Assembly (NCBI GenBank): GCA_009760855.2
Contig: WPIO01000001.1
Coordinates: 18,045,001 to 18,109,000 of the forward strand
Direction: 5' to 3'
DNA from: Cristatella mucedo
Taxonomy: Eukaryota; Bryozoa; Phylactolaemata; Cristatellidae
DNA: 64,000 bases
Position numbers and translations under genes: made by a program. Position 1 is the stretch's first letter, and the number at the start of each line of letters is the position of its first letter. Shown here in pieces: positions 1 to 62,821 of this stretch. A model generated the notes under the pieces. The model did not search any database and was not told the DNA's origin. It was given only the letters and a program-made list of their open reading frames with translations.

Positions 1-569
1 CTGATGCCACTATTATGCTTCAAGTAGGCCTCATCAGCAATTTGTCACGGCTCTACAAAATGCGACATTTCCACCCACAGGTCTTGCAATAGCTGTCGCA
101 GGTAAAAATTAAAGCTGGTGTATTTGTCGGACCGGAGGTAAAGAAGATCATTGAGTGCGATGAATTTTGCAAACAAGTCGAGCAGGACGGAGAAAAAAGT
201 TTGGAACACTTTCGCTGTAGATGTTCCCTGCTTTCTGGGCGATCACGAGGCTGAAAACGGTGATCATCATGGTCGAGGCTCGCACAAAGAGGTAGACCAG
301 AATCGTATACAGAATGACCATCAAAGTCCACACCTTTGATGCTCATCTTGATGCATTCAAGGAGACTATGAGAGCTTAATCAGACGAGTTAGTTAACAGC
401 CTTCACCAGGATATACTGGATTTTGAGCACCATAGCCAAGGACCGTTTAACGAAATCATGATTCCAAGGACTGTTTAACGAAATCATGATTAAGTACTAT
501 GCTTGGAGGCCTCCTAGAGAAAGTGGTTTGCAGCATAGAGGCAAATCTAAAGCATCTACATTTTTATGA
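1..569 (+). pseudogene. Copy A: decayed fragment of an uncharacterised multi-copy protein family
   Basis: Reading across frameshifts, this stretch shows collinear blocks of one protein: QFVTAL (~38-55), KIKAGVFVGPEVKK (~106-147), TEKKVWNTF then FLGDHEAEN (~190-258), MTIKVHTFDAHLDAFKET (314-367), HQDILDFE then QGPFNE, and a basic tail HRGKSKASTFL ending at TGA 567-569. I know this block order from uncharacterised, lineage-expanded and probably transposon-linked invertebrate genes with FLGNHKAEN, HLD and GERFHQD motifs; I cannot attach a function. The copy is dead: there is an in-frame TAA after KETMRA, at least two frameshifts, and a 28-bp tandem duplication. The left end is cut by the window edge. 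Similar fragments occur at 17.65-20.3 kb, 53.9 kb and 57 kb. Confidence 0.7.
436..491 (+). repeat. 28-bp exact-length tandem duplication inside copy A
   Basis: Two adjacent 28-bp copies (436-463 and 464-491) begin CCAAGGAC and end AAATCATGATT, with one C/T difference. Because 28 is not a multiple of 3 the duplication shifts the frame. Removing one copy puts QGPFNEIMI in frame with the C-terminal KYYAW...HRGKSKASTFL block, so the duplication arose in a copy that was still collinear. Confidence 0.85.
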
Positions 570-756
570 ACCCCTTTGAGCTGTCATTTTTATGAATTCC
601 GAGTAAATACATGTTAATCTTTTATTCATGCGCTGTTCTTAGTGAATAGATGTGAACCACAGGGTGAGGACTCGTCAGTTTCTCATTGGAATCGGGTTAA
701 CTTTAATTTAATCACTATTCTGGTCGCAAAAGCAAAATTGATAAGGATTATTGTGT

Positions 757-905
757 CGTCCTGGTTTGGGGCAGTGGCGAAGGTGCCCCATTTGCCAATC
801 AAGGTCAAGGTCATTACGGACTCCGGACGAGCCCCGTGGCACGTCTAAAGTACCTGACTATAGATTATGTTCTCTTAGTGTGACATATATATTAATTATA
901 TTTAT
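757..905 (+). mobile_element. SINE2 copy (tRNA-derived head, L2-like tail), degraded
   Basis: The head CTGGTTTGGGGCAGTGGCGA resembles box A of the better copies. A B-box-like GACGAGCCCCG follows, then a tail with GATTATGTTCTCTTAGTG that matches the SINE2/L2 hairpin region. It is an old copy with many substitutions. Confidence 0.5.
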
Positions 906-984
906 CCATTTTCCGTGTTTCTGAGAGATAAGCAATTAAAAGCAAACACTTACTACGTAGTGGCAAAAATTGTGTTACAACGTG

Positions 985-1125
985 ATTTAATCAATTTATT
1001 GAGGTGCTTGCCTCTGACGATCAAGGTCGTGGGCTCGGGGCCTTCTACATATGTGAAACATCTGGACAGAGATTGGGTTCTCATGGAGTGCTATAAAATG
1101 AATTGTAATTTTTTTATTAATAATA
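985..1125 (+). mobile_element. SINE2 copy, degraded
   Basis: It contains GAGGTGCTTGCC, a box-B-like GGGCTCGGGGCC, then ACATATGTGAAACATCTGG and GAGATTGGGTTCTC followed by GCTATAAAATGAA. This is the same head-tail order as the copies at 9.3, 33.8 and 53.7 kb. Confidence 0.6.
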
Positions 1126-2947: not shown

Positions 2948-3121
<174 letters not shown>

Positions 3122-3938: not shown

Positions 3939-3967
3939 ATGCGTGTGTGTGCGAGTGTGCGTGTGTG

Positions 3968-4382
3968 TGCTCGCGTGTGCATGTGCGGCGTGTGTATGTG
4001 CGGCGTGTGTATGTGCCGCGTGTGTATGTGCCGCGTGTGTATGTGCCGCGTGTGTATGTGCCGCGTGTGTATGTGCCGCGTGTGCATGTGCGGCGTGTGC
4101 ATGTGCGGCGTGTGTATGTGCCGCGTGTGTATGTGCCGCGTGTGTATGTGCCGCGTGTGTATGTGCCGCGTGTGTATGTGCCGCGTGTGTATGTGCCGCG
4201 TGTGTATGTGCCGCGTGTGTATGTGCCGCGTGTGTGTGCCGCGTGTGTATGTGCCGCGTGTGTATGTGCCGCGTGTGTATGTGCCGCGTGTGTATGTGCC
4301 GCGTGTGTATGTGCCGCGTGTGTATGTGCCGCGTGTGTATGTGCCGAGTGTGTATGTGCCGAGTGTGTATGTGCCGAGTGTG
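3968..4382 (+). repeat. 15-bp minisatellite, unit GTGTGTATGTGCCGC
   Basis: About 27 tandem copies of a 15-bp unit. Variants are GTGTGTATGTGCGGC (first units), GTGTGCATGTGCGGC, one 13-bp unit GTGTGTGTGCCGC near 4230, and three terminal units ending CGA. Because 15 is a multiple of three and the unit lacks stops, long ORFs appear in several frames on both strands. They encode pentapeptide repeats such as VYVPR or HIHTR and are not credible genes. The alternating purine-pyrimidine character favours Z-DNA. Confidence 0.97.
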
Positions 4383-17125: not shown

Positions 17126-17654
17126 CGTGTGAATTGTCCTACATGTGTTCATTCGCGAGTAAATTGTGCATGTTATCTCTAATCAGTAGCTCCTTAATTT
17201 ACGCCAACTCGAGTCAATACCAATGGCTCCCGAACCTTGAATATATGGCCTATCAGATCTGGGAAACGCCCCAAAAGCATAGGAATAGCCGCTATTCTCA
17301 ATGGACTACGCTTCCATGACCAGGACAGTGATGCATTTGAGATTGACTTATTTTCCAGAACTTTGCCAATACATAAATGGCCAAATGTCTTGTGTGCTAA
17401 ATACAGAGCAGTTTAGTTTCAGCTACCCAAATCATTGGATACATTTCCAAGTTCCCCGAGATGGCATAAAGAGACTGCACGCATCCGGCAGATGTTTTCT
17501 GCTACGTCAGTGGCCAATTTTTTCTAACCCAAAGGTTATCGAGGAAGCGTTTCTTCCGCACTCAGCTCTTCCTCTCGCTTCACTCGGTAAAAAACCTCAA
17601 AAAAAGAAGGATTCCAGAAGCTTCAAGACCTAGCTTCAGGCTTTTCGGTCATCA
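17126..17654. other. Unassigned sequence; possibly the 5' side of copy B
   Basis: An open frame at 17301-17633 (+) lies directly upstream of the pseudogene copy B. Its residues do not match the blocks I would expect there, so I do not assign it. Confidence 0.3.
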
Positions 17655-20290
17655 AAGACTTGTAAATGGCGGCATCATTCCTCATAGGTATCCACTGTAG
17701 TTTTACCAAATTTGCCTGGTCTCTCGGCCTTTGTGACAGCAGGCATCACCATGCACACACTGCCGCCGGTAGGAACGGCCGCAGTCAATCGACTTCTCTA
17801 TGGGGAGCACCAATTGTAAAGTGCGAGCCCCTGCTGGACAGAACACCCGGATGGTGCTGGTGCCAACAACTCTAAGCTGTCCTAGATAAAGGTCAAATCC
17901 AATGTCTTTATTGAACTACAGATATTTAAGATCAGTAAGTGGAATGAATATCCCAAGAAGCTCACTTGTAAGGAGAAAACGCCCCGGAGCGGTGGCTTTG
18001 TCATAGCAGTCTCTTCGGGGGGCTTCCTGGGCAGTCACATGGCAGCAGTGTCTTCGGGGGGCTTCCTGGGCAGTCACATGGCAGCAGTGTCTTCGGGGGG
18101 GGGGGCTTCCTGGGCAGTCACATGGGCAGCAGTGTCTTCGGGGGCTTCCTGGGCAGTCACATGGCAGCAGTGTGTCTCGGGGGGGGGGGCTTCCTGGGCA
18201 GTCACATGGCAGCAGTGGTGTGGGGGGGGGGCTTCCTGGGCATTCACATGGCAGCAGTGTCTTCGGGGGCTTCCTGGGCAGTCACATGGCAGCAGTGTCT
18301 TCGGGGGGGGGGCTTCCTGGGCAGTCACATGGCAGCAGTGTCTTCGGGGGGGGGGGCTTCCTGGGCAGTCACATGGCAGCAGTGTCTTCGGGGGGGGGGG
18401 GCTTCCTGGGCAGTCACATGGCAGCAGTGTCTTCGGGGGCTTCCTGGACAGTCACATGGCAGCAGTGTCTTCGGGGGGGGGGCTTCCTGGGCAGTCACAT
18501 GGCAGCAGTGTCTTCGGGGGCTTCCTGGGCAGTCACATGGCAGCAGTGTCTTCGGGGGGGGGGGCTTCCTGAGCATTCACATGGCAGCAGTGTCTTCGGG
18601 GGCTTCCTGGGCAGTCACATGGCAGCAGTGTCTTCGGGGGCTTCCTGGACAGTCACATGGCAGCAGTGTCTTCGGGGGGGGGCTTCCTGGGCAGTCACAT
18701 GGCAGCAGTGTCTTCGGGGGCTTCCTGGGCAGTCACATGGCAGCAGTGTCTCGGGGGGGGGGGCTTCCTGGGCATTCACATGGCAGCAGTGTCTTCGGGG
18801 GCTTCCTGGGCAGTCACATGGCAGCAGTGTCTTCGGGGGGGGGGGCTTCCTGGGCAGTCACATGGCAGCAGTGTCTTCGGGGGGGGGGCTTCCTGGGCAG
18901 TCACATGGCAGCAGTGTCTCGGGGGGGGGGGCTTCCTGGGCAGTCACATGGCAGCAGTGTCTTCGGGGGGGGGGGCTTCCTGGGCATTCACATGGCAGCA
19001 GTGTCTTCGGGGGCTTCCTGGGCAGTCACATGGCAGCTGTGTCTTCGGGGGGGGGGGGGGGCTTCCTGGGCAGTCACATGGCAGCAGTGTCTTCGGGGGC
19101 TTCCTGGGCAGTCACATGGCAGCAGTGTCTTCGGGGAGGGGGGCTTCCTGGGCATTCACATGGCAGCAGTGTCTTCGGGGGCTTCCTGGGCAGTCACATG
19201 GCGCAGTGTCTTCGGGGGGGGGGCTTCCTGGGCATTCACATGGCAGCAGTGTCTTCGGGGGCTTCCTGGGCAGTCACATGGCAGCAGTGTCTTCGGGGGG
19301 GGGGGGGGGCTTCCTGGGCAGTCACATGGCAGCAGTGTCTCGGGGGGGGGCTTCCTGGGCAGTCACATGGCAGCAGTGTCTTCGGGGGGGGGGGGGCTTC
19401 CTGGGCAGTCACATGGCAGCAGTGTCTTCGGGAGGGCTTCCTGGGCAGTCACATGGCAGCAGTGTCTTCGGGGGGGGGGGCTTCCTGGGCAGTCACATGG
19501 CAGCAGTGTCTTCGGGGGCTTCCTGGGCAGTCACATGGCAGCAGTGTCTTCGGGGGGGGGGGGCTTCCTGGGCAGTCACATGGCAGCAGTGTCTTCGGGG
19601 GGGGGCTTCCTGGGCAGTCACATGGCAGCAGTGTCTTCGGGAGGGCTTCCTGGGCAGTCACATGGCAGCAGTGTCTTCGGGGGGGGGGGGCTTCCTGGGC
19701 AGTCACATGGCAGCAGTGTCTTCGGGAGGGCTTCCTGGGCAGTCACATGGCAGCAGTGTCTTCGGGGGGGGGGGGCTTCCTGGGCATTCACATGGCAGCA
19801 GTGTCTTCGGGGGCTTCCTGGGCAGTCACATGGTAGCAGTGTCTTCGGGGGGGGGGGCTTCCTGGGCAGTCACATGGCAGCAGTGTCTTCGGGGGGGGGG
19901 CTTCCTGGGCAGTCACATGGCAGCAGTGTCTTCGGGGGCTTCCTGGGCAGTCACATGGCAGCAGTGTCTTCGGGGGGGGGGCTTCCTGGGCAGTCACATG
20001 GCGGAAAACAATGAAGAGCTGGTTGACACTACGGTAAAGGTGCAAAACGCAAGGGGCTGCAGGATGTCTTTCGAATTTCATATCCTTGATGCTCATCTTG
20101 ATAAAGTCAAGGAGAATATGAGGGATTACTCCAAGAAATAAGGTGAGTGCTTCCATGACGATTTGCTGCAATTTGAATGCTGCTACCAAGGATGGTATAG
20201 TCGGAGCATTACTGGAGACCATATTCGGGGGCTAATTCATGAAATTACTCATAGGCTAATTGTAAATCTCAACACCTATGCACTTACACA
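17655..20290 (+). pseudogene. Copy B: decayed multi-copy-family gene split by an internal minisatellite
   Basis: Left part: MAASFLIGI, then TKFAWSLGLCDSR and a His pair (17666-17752). Next come NSKLS-x-IKVKSNVF (17866-17907), FKISKWNEYPKKLTCKEKT (~17930-17983) and GFVIAVSSGGFLGSHMA (17992-18042). Right part, straight after the array: HMAENNEELVDTT, GCRMSFEFHILDAHLDKVKE (20058-20117), NMRDYSKK, stop TAA 20139-20141, then GECFHDDLLQFE and QGWYSRS (20142-20205), with degraded coding to about 20290. The two halves are collinear with copies A and C, where no array is present. So the minisatellite at 18006-20003 lies inside what was one continuous coding segment. Product function is unknown. The copy is broken by at least two stops and by frameshifts. 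Confidence 0.75.
18006..20003 (+). repeat. Minisatellite of about 48 units derived from the FLG-x-H coding segment of copy B
   Basis: Hand count gives 48 units. Each unit is GCAGTGTCTTC, a G-run of 5 to about 15, then CTTCCTGGGCAGTCACATGG and CA. With six Gs the unit is 39 bp and reads AVSSGGFLGSHMA in frame. Other G-run lengths shift the frame, which is why long ORFs of 494-630 codons span it in all three plus frames. The first unit (GCAGTCTCTTCGGGGGGC) is continuous with flanking pseudogene codons, and the last runs into ATGGCGGAAAACAATGAAG (MAENNEE). Variants: GCATTCAC for GCAGTCAC in seven units, GGACAGTC in two, TCTCGGG for TCTTCGGG in several, and GGGAGGG in several. Confidence 0.97.
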
Positions 20291-20299
20291 TTTCAAGTG

Positions 20300-20875
20300 A
20301 ATATTCTTGTTTAACTTCAATGCCTCATTTTAATTTTGATTCCAGTTTTTCTGACTTCGTGCGAAGCAAATGATGCAAGTTTGCCTGTCTTCCTATTGGA
20401 AATGGGAAAATTTCAAATTTATCACTGTCCTGGTCACAAAAGCAACGTTTGCCGTTAAACAACAGCTATATTCTTTACTAACGAGGCACAAGCAATTGCA
20501 AAATAACACTTACTAGTCAGGAAAGAAAATTGTGCTACATCGTAGATGTACATGTACACAGTTAGCCGATGGTTGGACGTCTGCTACCTACAGCGACCAA
20601 CGGTCATCCTGAAAGTCAATTGAATACTCGAACAACTTAAGCAAATTGAGAGCAAATTAAATATATGCCGCTATTCGGCTAAAGTCTTGACTGAAGCATG
20701 ATCCTATGTGTTATGAAATATTTGGCAATATCTAGATGTACAGCCTGCATCCAAAAGATATTCAGCAGAGAATGCATTCATTCAGAAATCAGCAGCCCAG
20801 GGGTTACAAGTTGACCTTAGCTGATTCGCCTGAGGGTTAGTGCATGCTCGAAGATGAACTAAGACCCCGGGTCTT
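20300..20875. other. Unassigned AT-rich sequence
   Basis: No domain or element recognised. It may contain the 3' flank of copy B. Confidence 0.4.
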
Positions 20876-20876
20876 T

Positions 20877-20932
<56 letters not shown>
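20876..20932 (+). repeat. (CT)n microsatellite
   Basis: Perfect TC dinucleotide tract of about 57 bp, followed by GAGGGCGGG. Confidence 0.98.
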
Positions 20933-50529: not shown

Positions 50530-50720
50530 AGCAGAATGGGATCCAGCAGTATCGCATCCAGCAGTATCGCATCCAGCAGTATCGCATCCAGCAGTATCGC
50601 ATCCAGCAGTATAGCATCCAGCAGTATCGCATCCAGCTGTATCATATCCAGCAGTATTGGACCTAGCAGTATTGGTTCCAGCTGTTTTGGTTCCATCGGT
50701 ATCGCATACAGCAGTATGGG
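50530..50720 (+). repeat. 15-bp minisatellite, unit CCAGCAGTATCGCAT
   Basis: About 12-13 tandem 15-bp units, very uniform on the left and increasingly diverged to the right (ATATCATAT, TATTGGACC, TGTTTTGGTT). The length is a multiple of three, so both strands stay open and give pentapeptide repeats (SSSIA; AILLD). Neither reading is supported as a gene. Confidence 0.95.
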
Positions 50721-52250: not shown

Positions 52251-52335
<85 letters not shown>

Positions 52336-52402
52336 GACAGAGAGAGACAGAGAGAGAGACAGAGAGAGACAGAGAGAGACAGAGAGACAGACAGAGAGAG
52401 AC

Positions 52403-52447
<45 letters not shown>

Positions 52448-52559
52448 GACACAGAGAGAGAGAGAGAGAGAGAGAGACACACACACACAGAGACAGAGAC
52501 AAAGGTCAGAGAGAGATAGACAGAGAGAGAGACAGAGAAAGAGAGACAGAGACAGAGAC

Positions 52560-52609
<50 letters not shown>

Positions 52610-53732: not shown

Positions 53733-54125
53733 GTTTGGTCCAGCGGTTAAGGTGCTCGCCCCGACCAAGGTCTGGCTGAGGTCTTGGGCTCGAGCCTCGT
53801 GGCATATGTGAAGCGCCTGAATGGAGATTAGCCGAAAGTTTCGAAGTTTCCAGTTTCGAAGGTACTCGAAGACTCCTTATCGAGAGCTGAGGCAAATCGA
53901 TTCGTACGGCCCATGTAGCGTGTGTAGTGGTGAGTGGCATCGTTGCGTGCGGCCATTCCGAACTTCCCCTGGTAGTGTGCATGGCGATCCCTACTGAACC
54001 CTTCCATAGATAGCGGGAAACAGGGCCTCGGAGACCTATCGCGAATGCTACCGCTGCGATCTCTCCTGTGACCTCCTAGCCAAACTCAGTATGCCAAGTT
54101 CTCTTGGGGCGCTATATAAATGGAA
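53733..54125 (+). mobile_element. SINE2 copy split by an antisense gene fragment
   Basis: Left part: GCTGGTTTGGTCCAGCGGTT, AAGGTGCTCGCCCCGACCAA, B box GGGCTCGAGCCTC, GGCATATGTGAAGCGCCTGA, ATGGAGATTA (to 53830). Right part: AAGTTCTCTTGGGGCGCTAT then ATAAATGGAAG (54096-54125). Joining them across the insertion gives the normal SINE2 hairpin GAGATTAAGTTCTCTTGGGG, so the insertion is inside the hairpin loop. Confidence 0.88.
53852..54095 (-). pseudogene. Copy D: 244-bp fragment of the multi-copy protein family inside a SINE2
   Basis: About 97.5% identical (6 differences by eye in 244 bp) to 57218-57461. On the minus strand the frame reads MEGFSRDRHAHYQGKF and, after an interruption, RFASALDKESLSTFE. 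This is the segment between the LC-WDSR block and the K-V-K block of the family. About 21 bp to its left (53831-53851) contain a second AGTTTCGAAG-like copy and are not in the 57-kb sequence. Only an internal slice is present, which implies duplication of an already broken pseudogene. Confidence 0.75.
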
Positions 54126-56122: not shown

Positions 56123-56820
56123 AAATGCTTATACTTGCCTTTATCTGCGACGTAATTCACGTACCGTTTACGAAAGTAAATATTTTTGCACGGCAGTTCG
56201 CGGCTATTTGTACAGGTAGGCGATTGCAATGTTTGAGGTCGCAGGATGGCGACGGACTAGGCAAGGATGCTTGCCACAGAAAAAGTACGTCGAACGGCAG
56301 CGCTCGATGAAGAACGCACATTTGCGGCCTCATTTGTCTATATAAAACTCGTTTTAGTTTATATTTACATTGTAACCCTTTAATACTTAAACCCTTACCA
56401 TTTGCCTAGGGGCATATTTCTGCCAGCCGGGGCGGTACTAAGGAAGGAAGGAATGTGGATGAATCACCAGCCTAAGAACGATAGCGGAGTGAGCAGCAGC
56501 AGTAGCAGCAGCAGCAGCAGCGCCGAAATGCTTGTCGCTGCCGGTCGGGCTAGCGTGAAGCGCCGACCAATATATAAGGCCTGCGCTTACGCTTCTTTCG
56601 TTGAGTAGGGGGAACTCACTTAGTTTGAGAGTACGCATTGAGGACTTTCTTTGGCAGAGGATGTGGCAGTCGTACGGCTTATGAGCGATGGTGCACGTTT
56701 AGTCTGGCACAGCAGCAAAGGAATGAGTATTCATATGAAGCTATATAACAATAACAAGAATCGATGTGGCAGTGAGTAATTCTTACCAAAATTTAAGATT
56801 CTAATGTAAATCAATTTCAC
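56123..56820. other. Unassigned; TATA-like site and (CAG)n patch
   Basis: A (AGC)n run lies at 56493-56521, and TATATAAG occurs at 56571-56578 in a GC-rich setting. No coding sequence could be linked to it. Confidence 0.35.
56571..56578 (+). promoter_or_regulatory. TATA-like core promoter candidate
   Basis: CCAATATATAAGGCC with a C/T-rich stretch about 20-30 bp downstream (GCTTACGCTTCTTTCG). The context resembles the site at 13375. No transcript evidence is available. Confidence 0.18.
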
Positions 56821-56824
56821 GACG

Positions 56825-57461
56825 AATCTCCCGAAGTTGGCCTCTCGTCGTTCTCATCACACTGTCCTTGGCAGAGGTGTTTCAAGTCTAATAAATCCTG
56901 ATGCAAGCTCTTGCCTTGTCTGTCACAGTAGGCCTTCATGTTCTCCTCGATGCATCAAGATGAGCACCAATCTTGTGGACTTTTAAGGATATCGTGCTAT
57001 CCAGCATACAGTATTCCTTCACCACAGTCTCAATCAGCTGCATCGGTAGACTCGTGTTTGCCCAGGAAACCCCGGACAGCTTTGACGAAGCCTTTCCAAG
57101 GTGTTTTCTCCTTGCTAATGAGCTGCACGGGATTTCATAGCCGTTTAGTAATCTACTTTTTTTTGTAATCACAAAAGACACCGACTTTGACCTTCACCTC
57201 AGAAAGCTTAGGGAAGAAGTTTCGAAGGTACTCAAAGACTCCTTATCGAGAGCTGAGGCAAATCGATTCGCACGGCCCATGTTGCGCGTGCAGTGGTGAG
57301 TGGCATCGTTGCGTGCGGCCATTCCGAACTTCCCCTGGTAGTGTGCATGGCGATCCCTACTGAACCCTTCCATAGATAGCGGGAAACAGGGCCTCGGATA
57401 CCTATCGCGAATGCTACCGCTGCGATCTCTCCTGTGACCTCCTAGCCAAACTCAGTATGCC
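56825..57461 (-). pseudogene. Copy C: decayed multi-copy-family gene without the minisatellite
   Basis: Minus strand, from the right: GEIAAVAFAIGI (about 57441-57406), SRDRHAHYQGKF, RFASALDKES (about 57265-57235), LRNFFPKLSEVKVKVGVF (57221-57168), then LISKEKTPWKGF and VKAVRGFLGKHE after frameshifts (about 57120-57060). It continues with IETVVKEYC, ISLKVHKIGAHLDA (about 57000-56950), EENMKAYC, DRQGKSLHQDLLDL and QGQCDEN (to about 56850). The blocks are collinear with copies A and B. It shows what copy B looked like before the array: a single VRGFLGKHE. Several indels make it non-coding. Confidence 0.75.
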
Positions 57462-60723: not shown

Positions 60724-60854
60724 CTACAACAGGGCCAAACCCGGTGACCGGATGTGATGTGGGAGTGCTGATGTGGATCAGAGCTCACACACTTGCACAG
60801 GCATATGGGAGGGAATGGCGATATATTGATTGCAAGTGTGACGCCTGCCCTTAC

Positions 60855-61075
60855 CCTCGGCAGCCGCCTTCTCCATGTCTTTTTCCCGCTGCCGGCGTGC
60901 TGCACGCTGCTTCTCCTCGAGCCGTACTTTCTCCGAGTTGGCCTCTTCCCACCGAGCCTCTTCCATCAGGCGCAGATCGGGCCGCAGTCGTGAGTCGGTG
61001 GGAGCAATACCGTCCTCAATCTCGTTGAGCTCCACAGCCATTTGTGTGAAGTTGTAGCACTTCTCAAGGTATGGG
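60855..61075 (-). CDS. OSBP: OSBP/ORP-family protein, penultimate coding exon
   Basis: Minus-strand exon with acceptor TTTGCAG just above 61075 and donor G|GTAAGG at 60855/60854. It carries the most diagnostic OSBP-related signature I can see: KCYNFTQMAVELNE, then APTDSRLRPD, LMEEARWEEAN, EKVRLEEKQRAARRQRE and EKAAAE. In the known family this is the end of the ligand-binding (ORD) domain, followed by a charged helix. The exon is 221 nt (1 + 73 codons + 1), so the entry phase fits the upstream exon (phase 2) and the exit phase fits the last exon (phase 1). An ORF runs on past both splice sites, but the extra sequence has no family similarity and is intronic. The intron to the last exon is 131 bp (60724-60854). 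Confidence 0.92.
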
Positions 61076-62821
61076 CTGCAAAGATTGTGCTTGTTGTGCA
61101 TGTGACAGACAACGAGCTCCAGCAGCTTGACTTCTATGGCGGGCTCACCACAATCAAGGCATGCGCAATATAGTGCGACTCTGGATCGTAGCAGCACTGT
61201 TTCTAGAGACGTCCGTGCATGAGACGTTGCAACATTATGCCACATGCAGTTAGAGCATGACAATGGCATGCATCGTACTGGCAATACTAAGTCAGCGACG
61301 TCGCTCAGAATTTTCAACAAAGCTTCTATTGTACACGTCCAATGAGTATTGGATATTGCTAGCAACTTTGTGTTATGAGGGGAATTGCTCTCAGTGGCAA
61401 ACTTTCTAAGGAATAAGCATATCTTATCGAGTCCGATATTGGCTAACTGATCAACAGCAGGTGCCTGTAACTTCTCAAACAAATTTTCTGATACTCCCTA
61501 CATGTTAATATTTTTTGAGGACTTCGTTCTGTCTATCCCAGTAAGTGATTGGGCATCTGTGTAAACACAGGCGACCTCATCTTTACATCTCAACTGACAG
61601 CCAAAACTCTACAAGCAAACACTAAAGTTCCTTACAGATCTCCAGGAAAAATGTGTTCTAGCACAAACTGTTACCACATTTGAATGCTACCAAAGCAGCT
61701 GCTAAGAGCTTGTTATCAGACGCCTTAAGAAGACATAGCCCAATGATCATCAGGAATGGCATGAACTGGGCTAGCAATGAAGTCACAGCCATGCATTCAT
61801 AAAGCACACACATAAACATGGAGCACGACTAACAGCAATCAAATAATCGCAGAGTGTTTCTCTTAAATAAAACATTCCAACACAGATTGCTGCTACACAG
61901 CTCTTGGAGCACATTTAAATCAGCGGTCTATCAGGAAATTAAGCTTCGAGATACCATTCATAATAACATAAAATATTCAACAGATAAAGTGAGGATTTCG
62001 GTTAAGGATAGGCAAGAAATACTCAACCTTACATTTGGGAAGTCGAGACTGCTAGAGGCTCAAAGTAATCTATTTTTTTCGAAGAGATGGTCGATAATTT
62101 GATGCATCAGGTTGCAAGGTACCAAATGCTGCTTCAATACCTGACTGCCACAAAGCTACAAAAGCCGAGGCTGGCATGTTGGAGGTGGCCCACGGGGTCG
62201 AAGTGCGTCACGGCACTCTGGACGAACAATAATGCCGAAGGCCTTATAAACAATGTAGGGCCGGTAGGGCCATTGGTGGTAATAGCACGAGGATACACAG
62301 ACACAATTGCAAACCCGGACGGAACACCATTATCTATAATGTTTAATAAAACCCCAATTTCGAGCCACCTATTGTGGAAATAGCAACCGGATCGAAGGCC
62401 GAAACGAATGTCGGCTTGCTAGGCCGGTCCACTAGAGACCATGGCAAAAGAATGCACTTGCGTCATCTCATGAAATTTGGTGCCCAAACTTAGAACACCA
62501 TTCCGTATAAGTTGAAATCAAAACTGCAGTTGTGCGATGCTTATTAAGAAAATGGCAGCTGTATTGCAAATCACAAAAGCTGTCTCACAAATAACTTTGG
62601 TGCAGTGCACGACAGTTATTCGTGGGACCCAAAATATATAGCTACAAAGATAGAGTACAGATAAAGAATATGGCCCATCAATATCGTACAGCCGTAAGGG
62701 GCTTGCCAGATTGCTATGCCCTGAGAGCTCAAACTGAACAGGTGGGATGAATACCCCTGGCATAGAACCTCCAAGGTTTTTGCAAACACATAACTTAAAC
62801 AGAACACACGATGCGACTTAC
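61076..62821 (-). other. Intron of the OSBP-like gene
   Basis: Intron of 1,746 bp bounded by GTAAGT and TTTGCAG, phase 2. Several short ORFs occur on both strands but none shows a recognisable domain or codon pattern, and I could not identify a mobile element inside it. Confidence 0.75.

Follow-up and report, generated by a model that had tools for sequence, protein, structure and literature searches.

Transposable elements have been assigned as the source of 7,276 of 31,472 human minisatellites (PMC3389668), and minisatellites of this origin are the subject of a review (PMC6947457). In the human cases described in PMC3389668 (Alu, LTR12, and L1PA), the units originate within a single copy of a dispersed element and multiply locally. 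The first step from a single-copy stretch to a minisatellite is poorly known. The model of Haber and Louis, as cited in PMC3389668 and PMC6947457, starts with slippage between direct repeats of 5–10 bp, and that of Taylor and Breden, as cited in PMC3389668, starts at noncontiguous repeats and leaves an incomplete terminal unit; according to PMC3389668, postulated mechanisms account for only 6% of tandem repeats of transposable-element origin in humans. A second point of reference is the human minisatellite CEB1, whose 39-nt unit contains a G-sextet and which is unstable in yeast in a G-quadruplex-dependent manner (PMC5491262).

The minisatellite described here is a very clear and cleanly traced case of the process set out in PMC3389668 and PMC6947457, and it offers, in one genome, the one-unit state at 66 sister loci, the probable founder units, and a record of growth in two-unit blocks. 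It resembles the human Alu, LTR12, and L1PA minisatellites of PMC3389668 in its origin within one element copy and its local growth, but differs from them in that the source family has no Pfam match, the unit lies within what was once a coding motif, and the dimer pattern is strong. The statement in the preliminary description that few minisatellites can be traced to a specific coding motif is too strong in view of the human figures in PMC3389668.

The array spans positions 18005–20002 on the plus strand of the window (the whole 64-kb stretch of Cristatella mucedo DNA that was analysed) and has 48 head-to-tail units, which agrees with the preliminary estimate of about 48 units in ~2 kb. Unit starts are spaced 37–48 bp apart, within the range of >10 and <100 bp that defines a minisatellite. 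Each unit consists of AGCAGTGTCTTC, a G-run, and CTTCCTGGGCAGTCACATGGC, with scattered variants; unit 1 has AGCAGTCTCTTC in place of AGCAGTGTCTTC, a departure at one base within the first 12. As previously noted, ...GGFVIAVSSGGFLGSHMA leads without a break into the first unit, and the last runs into FLGSHMAENNEELVDTTVKVQNARGCRMSFEFHILDAHLDKVKENMRDYSKK and a stop. The last unit, which ends at 20002, is a complete one. Variation in unit length is mostly due to the one G-run. Its lengths are bimodal, with 20 units at 5–7 (5 in 15 units, 6 in 2, and 7 in 3), none at 8, and 28 at 9–15 (9 in 3 units, 10 in 7, 11 in 11, 12 in 4, 13 in 1, and 15 in 2); a single A lies inside the run in four units (28, 35, 40, and 42). 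Outside the G-run, 23 of the 1551 bases in units 1–47 depart from the commonest unit (~98.5% likeness), to which 29 of these 47 units are identical. The six-G unit of 39 bp and 13 codons described earlier is found in units 1 and 2 (18005–18082, plus strand) and in none of the other 46. As the 39-bp form is confined to these two units and unit 1 carries the base difference in AGCAGTCTCTTC, the 5′ end of the array looks like the founder end.

Because the units alternate, a period of 82 receives a higher score (2743) from Tandem Repeats Finder than one of 38 (1531). Short-G and long-G units alternate with 35 transitions as compared with 23.3 in shuffles (P 0.00025), and, with units 1 and 2 set aside, the lag-1 correlation of G-length is −0.56 and the lag-2 correlation +0.43. 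The CATTC variant occurs in a long-G unit that is followed by a five-G unit in 7/7 instances, and the longest exact direct repeat inside the array is 105 bp at an offset of 85, or about two units. The simplest reading of this pattern is growth of the array through two-unit blocks by unequal exchange or slippage. Ten long-long and two short-short neighbour pairs are exceptions to the alternation, and growth appears to have been only partly in such blocks. These same features bear on whether the array or its variants might be an artefact of collapsed or expanded reads or of homopolymer error. Long G-runs are prone to sequencing and assembly error, and the array is seen in one assembly only; the bimodal G-lengths and the base variants linked in the dimer pattern are nonetheless unlike random error, and an artefact is very unlikely. 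The exact copy number may be off, as it and the G-run lengths come from one assembly of homopolymer-rich DNA.

Both flanks of the array consist of decayed sequence of one family. The left flank (17737–18004, plus strand) is clear by blastn from 17872, with a weaker match at 17737–17788; it matches sister copy C (reverse complement of 57211–57054) and sister copy A (91–196) with scores that beat all 200 shuffles, and it is collinear with other family loci over bins −650 to 0. The right flank (20003–20555, plus strand) is the remainder of the array-bearing copy and runs to the 3′ edge of the family at ~20540–20555. With the unit excluded, the left flank (17700–18004) aligns with C at 61.1 bits and with A at 42.5 bits, and the right flank (20001–20330) at 92.5 and 74.0 bits, respectively; the top score from 200 dinucleotide shuffles per flank was 28.3 bits. 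Since the alignment stops and restarts at the unit, the flanks represent the left and right halves of a single family copy. The preliminary description had held that flanks derived from different family members, or not alignable with A and C, would speak against in-place expansion, and the flanks proved to align collinearly with both.

Copy A (90–989, plus strand) has a single unit, read as FLGDHEAEN, and copy C (56736–57461, minus strand) likewise, read as VRGFLGKHE; both have the collinear flanks and lack of an array reported earlier. They are old sister copies, however, and not the unexpanded, ancestral form of the array locus for which they had been taken. A fourth family fragment of 244 bp (53852–54095, minus strand) shares 97.5% identity with the left portion of C (57218–57461), stops before the FLG site, and stems from recent duplication. 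Other stretches of the family carry short tandem duplications, one of 28 bp in two copies at 436–491 in copy A and one of 51 bp in 1.9 copies at L002:1450–1548; in these places, the same process may have begun in other parts of the element.

The sister copies belong to what the preliminary description called a gene family and what is instead a dispersed, decayed repeat. The right flank has at least 41 family matches in the assembly, itself included (best 40 of 108 candidates scored). A better-preserved fragment has at least 150 (best 150 of 1166 loose candidates scored), about 32 of the 150 being stop-free, and a fragment from further upstream also has at least 150 (best 150 of 915). Homology between loci starts beyond −1.4 kb and falls off 3′ of the site: 31, 19, 10, and 7 of 54 records match at bins +500, +550, +600, and +650, respectively, and 2 to 10 continue further. 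Among 30 loci, the last match to the array copy falls at 20540–20555 in 11, and three match beyond. Identity to the family majority has a median of 76% (range 65–83%). The majority sequence at the site is VVRGFLGNHKAENY, and GERFHQD-like stretches come next; in a more diverged relative (L109), the site reads FLGNVRAENYKEL within an open frame of 206 amino acids. Invertebrate genomes commonly encode unnamed proteins with motifs of this kind. From its sequence, we consider the family a large, mostly stop-ridden repeat that was formerly protein-coding and is probably the remains of a transposable element, an identity suggested by copy number, decay, and the shared 3′ edge. The unit is homologous to the family at exactly its position and the presumed element lies on both sides, as in minisatellites derived from transposable elements. 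A 44-bp inverted match (17310–17353 and 20443–20400, 77%) surrounds the array copy, and its right arm also matches A at 680–735; as it sits inside the shared 3′ edge, it may be a coincidence or an inner terminal repeat.

The Pfam scan took in 15 proteins, namely 12 family fragments, two window ORFs that we take to be LINE-like, and one oxysterol-binding ORF. None of the 12 family fragments scored above the cut-off; sub-threshold matches to TM250 (E 0.14, a LINE-like ORF) and VP7 (E 0.18, the L055 family fragment) were taken as chance. In a sequence search of the PDB, the right flank had a best E of 0.49 and L109 had no match up to E 1. No family relatives were found in viral_contigs, and the exact unit was absent from both viral_contigs and genome_contigs (prokaryotic). 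A literature search found no paper with three short family motifs and gave no match for involucrin.

The FLG-x-H site was surveyed across the window's own assembly (572 Mb, 688 contigs). In the first set, 52 loci were fetched and two dropped (L004 and L043, duplicates of L063 and L061, respectively), leaving 50 plus A and C; the profile was built from these loci, and 46 rows span the site, 45 of them from other loci and all with one unit. The second set added 22 loci, with L079, L081, L082, and L084 omitted as duplicates of L044, L048, L089, and L090, respectively; for it, 20 of the 150 scored matches to the better-preserved fragment were fetched because their match crossed the site, a choice biased against arrays. 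All 74 other family loci match the family profile, and 66 of them span the site (67 rows, with L065 represented twice). Every one of the 66, A and C included, has one unit, with 31–48 nt at the site (mode 44). The region is partial or split in the remaining eight, which are uncountable (L002, L035, L039, L042, L056, L067, L068, and L073). A spanning row would be interrupted by a large array, and the 22 added loci had been chosen for a continuous match; we therefore checked for selection bias. Without those 22, 44 of 44 spanning loci are single-unit, out of 52. Among 29 loci found through the right flank alone, a search blind to the site, all 25 that span it have a single unit and four do not span it.

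Tandem Repeats Finder detected an array of the FLG unit in none of the 74 other loci. A strict two-unit pattern, which may miss decayed pairs, has 41 matches in the whole assembly, all inside the 18005–20002 array, as compared with 0 in the control. The assembly has 37 exact matches to the unit core, all of them in the array; outside it, there are 41 matches with 1–3 mismatches, and one in the control. In two loci, the site is loosely matched a second time, by an inverted copy in L065 and by a distant sequence on the opposite strand in L067, and neither locus contains a tandem unit pair. In L065 (G000:C55:5846300-5850200), the two family sites are oppositely oriented, ~650 bp from each other, and identical in sequence, constituting an inverted duplication. 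The proposal that the repeat unit corresponds to the family's FLG-x-H stretch and was amplified in situ in a single copy is thus upheld by 66/66 spanning loci, and the suggested genome search for members with two or more units yielded none, by spanning loci or by the strict pattern.

Amplification in place leaves the question of whether the array is a coding repeat, that is, a repetitive protein segment maintained by selection. The two flank frames are in phase, and the frame from 17886 to 20141 has one stop only, a TGA inside the array at 18570–18572 in unit 14 (plus strand; CTGGGC to CTGAGC), the sole in-array stop in the frame that the flanks share; three ORFs (680, 609, and 522 amino acids) span all or much of the array. 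Across the array, however, the three plus-strand frames hold only 0, 1, and 1 stops, and long ORFs over it are therefore automatic and mean little. The units fall into phases 18/17/13 over the 48, as in an array without a kept frame, and matching phase at both array ends has a 1 in 3 chance of occurring. The right flank, moreover, terminates as YSKK and a stop where its relative L048 reads on as YSEKQGERF. Coding VNTRs of expressed genes share with this locus a founder unit made up of whole codons (39 bp) of a coding motif, but the array keeps no frame and its host copy is decayed. As no reading frame is kept across the units, we rejected the reading as a coding repeat or coding VNTR, which is extremely improbable. 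Arrays can spread through transposition or conversion, but the insertion or conversion of a pre-existing minisatellite from elsewhere into this site has no positive support, the unit matching the family at exactly the array site on both sides and no other array of it having been found in the assembly, and there is next to no chance that it occurred.

Local amplification within a decayed element copy is, by comparison, highly likely. With the unit excluded, the array copy agrees with the family majority at 308 of 426 bases (72%), slightly under the sister median. Because the flanks are at 72% and the units at ~98.5%, the copy decayed first, and amplification or homogenisation of the present array came later. 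The site is 50 nt in the array copy and 44 in the majority, with six Gs and four, respectively. In the order of events that we propose, an old dispersed copy, probably of a transposable element with a protein-coding region, would have decayed at this locus; its FLG-x-H site would then have gained six bases, giving a stretch of 39 bp that includes six consecutive Gs, and this stretch would have duplicated head to tail. Amplification to 48 units would have followed, its local nature suggested by the single unit in the sisters examined and the lack of a second array, and its partial progress in blocks of a short-G and a long-G unit by the dimer structure. The G-run would have drifted through slippage, with recent amplification or homogenisation accounting for the low divergence of units between old flanks, and the outcome would be a G-rich minisatellite that presumably has no coding role or other function.

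Neither published start signature is seen at the array. For the edge direct repeats (5–10 bp) of Haber and Louis, the best 8-bp pair at the edges of the founder unit matches at 6/8, which 32% of random pairs equal; the incomplete terminal unit of Taylor and Breden is absent, the last unit being complete.

The plus strand of the array has 30 overlapping and 16 non-overlapping canonical G-quadruplex motifs and a mean G4Hunter-style score of 0.93, as compared with 0.004 for the rest of the window, making it a strong candidate, on sequence grounds, for G-quadruplex formation, which may have helped the amplification. As described in PMC5491262, CEB1 likewise has a G-rich 39-nt unit with one six-G run and the potential to form G-quadruplexes; the present unit has fewer G-tracts, and we regard the resemblance as due to chance and claim no kinship. 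At the site in the 67 sister rows, the longest G-run is 5 in one row, 4 in 13, 3 in 37, and 2 in 16; a run of six is found in the array copy only. The sister with five Gs (L032) has no array. A tentative, and rather doubtful, reading is that of a threshold founder mutation, by which the site became unstable only once the dead copy had six Gs and with them a short, G-quadruplex-prone unit. Alternatively, unit 1 could have acquired its six Gs only after the array had started to form. If there was such a threshold, the sister copies, with 0/67 rows above five Gs, would be a natural one-unit control series for replaying the birth of a minisatellite.

Elsewhere, Rfam and ARAGORN gave no match within the window. 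An exon-like ORF at 60778–61497 (minus strand) matches the oxysterol-binding protein family (Pfam E 1.8e-23) and was the sole scanned protein above the cut-off. Long AG/CT dinucleotide arrays occur at 2951–3114, 20878–20932, and 52253–52605, one of which begins ~320 bp past the 3′ edge of the family, and minisatellites with 15-bp units lie at 3961–4382 (28 copies) and 50530–50717 (12.5 copies).
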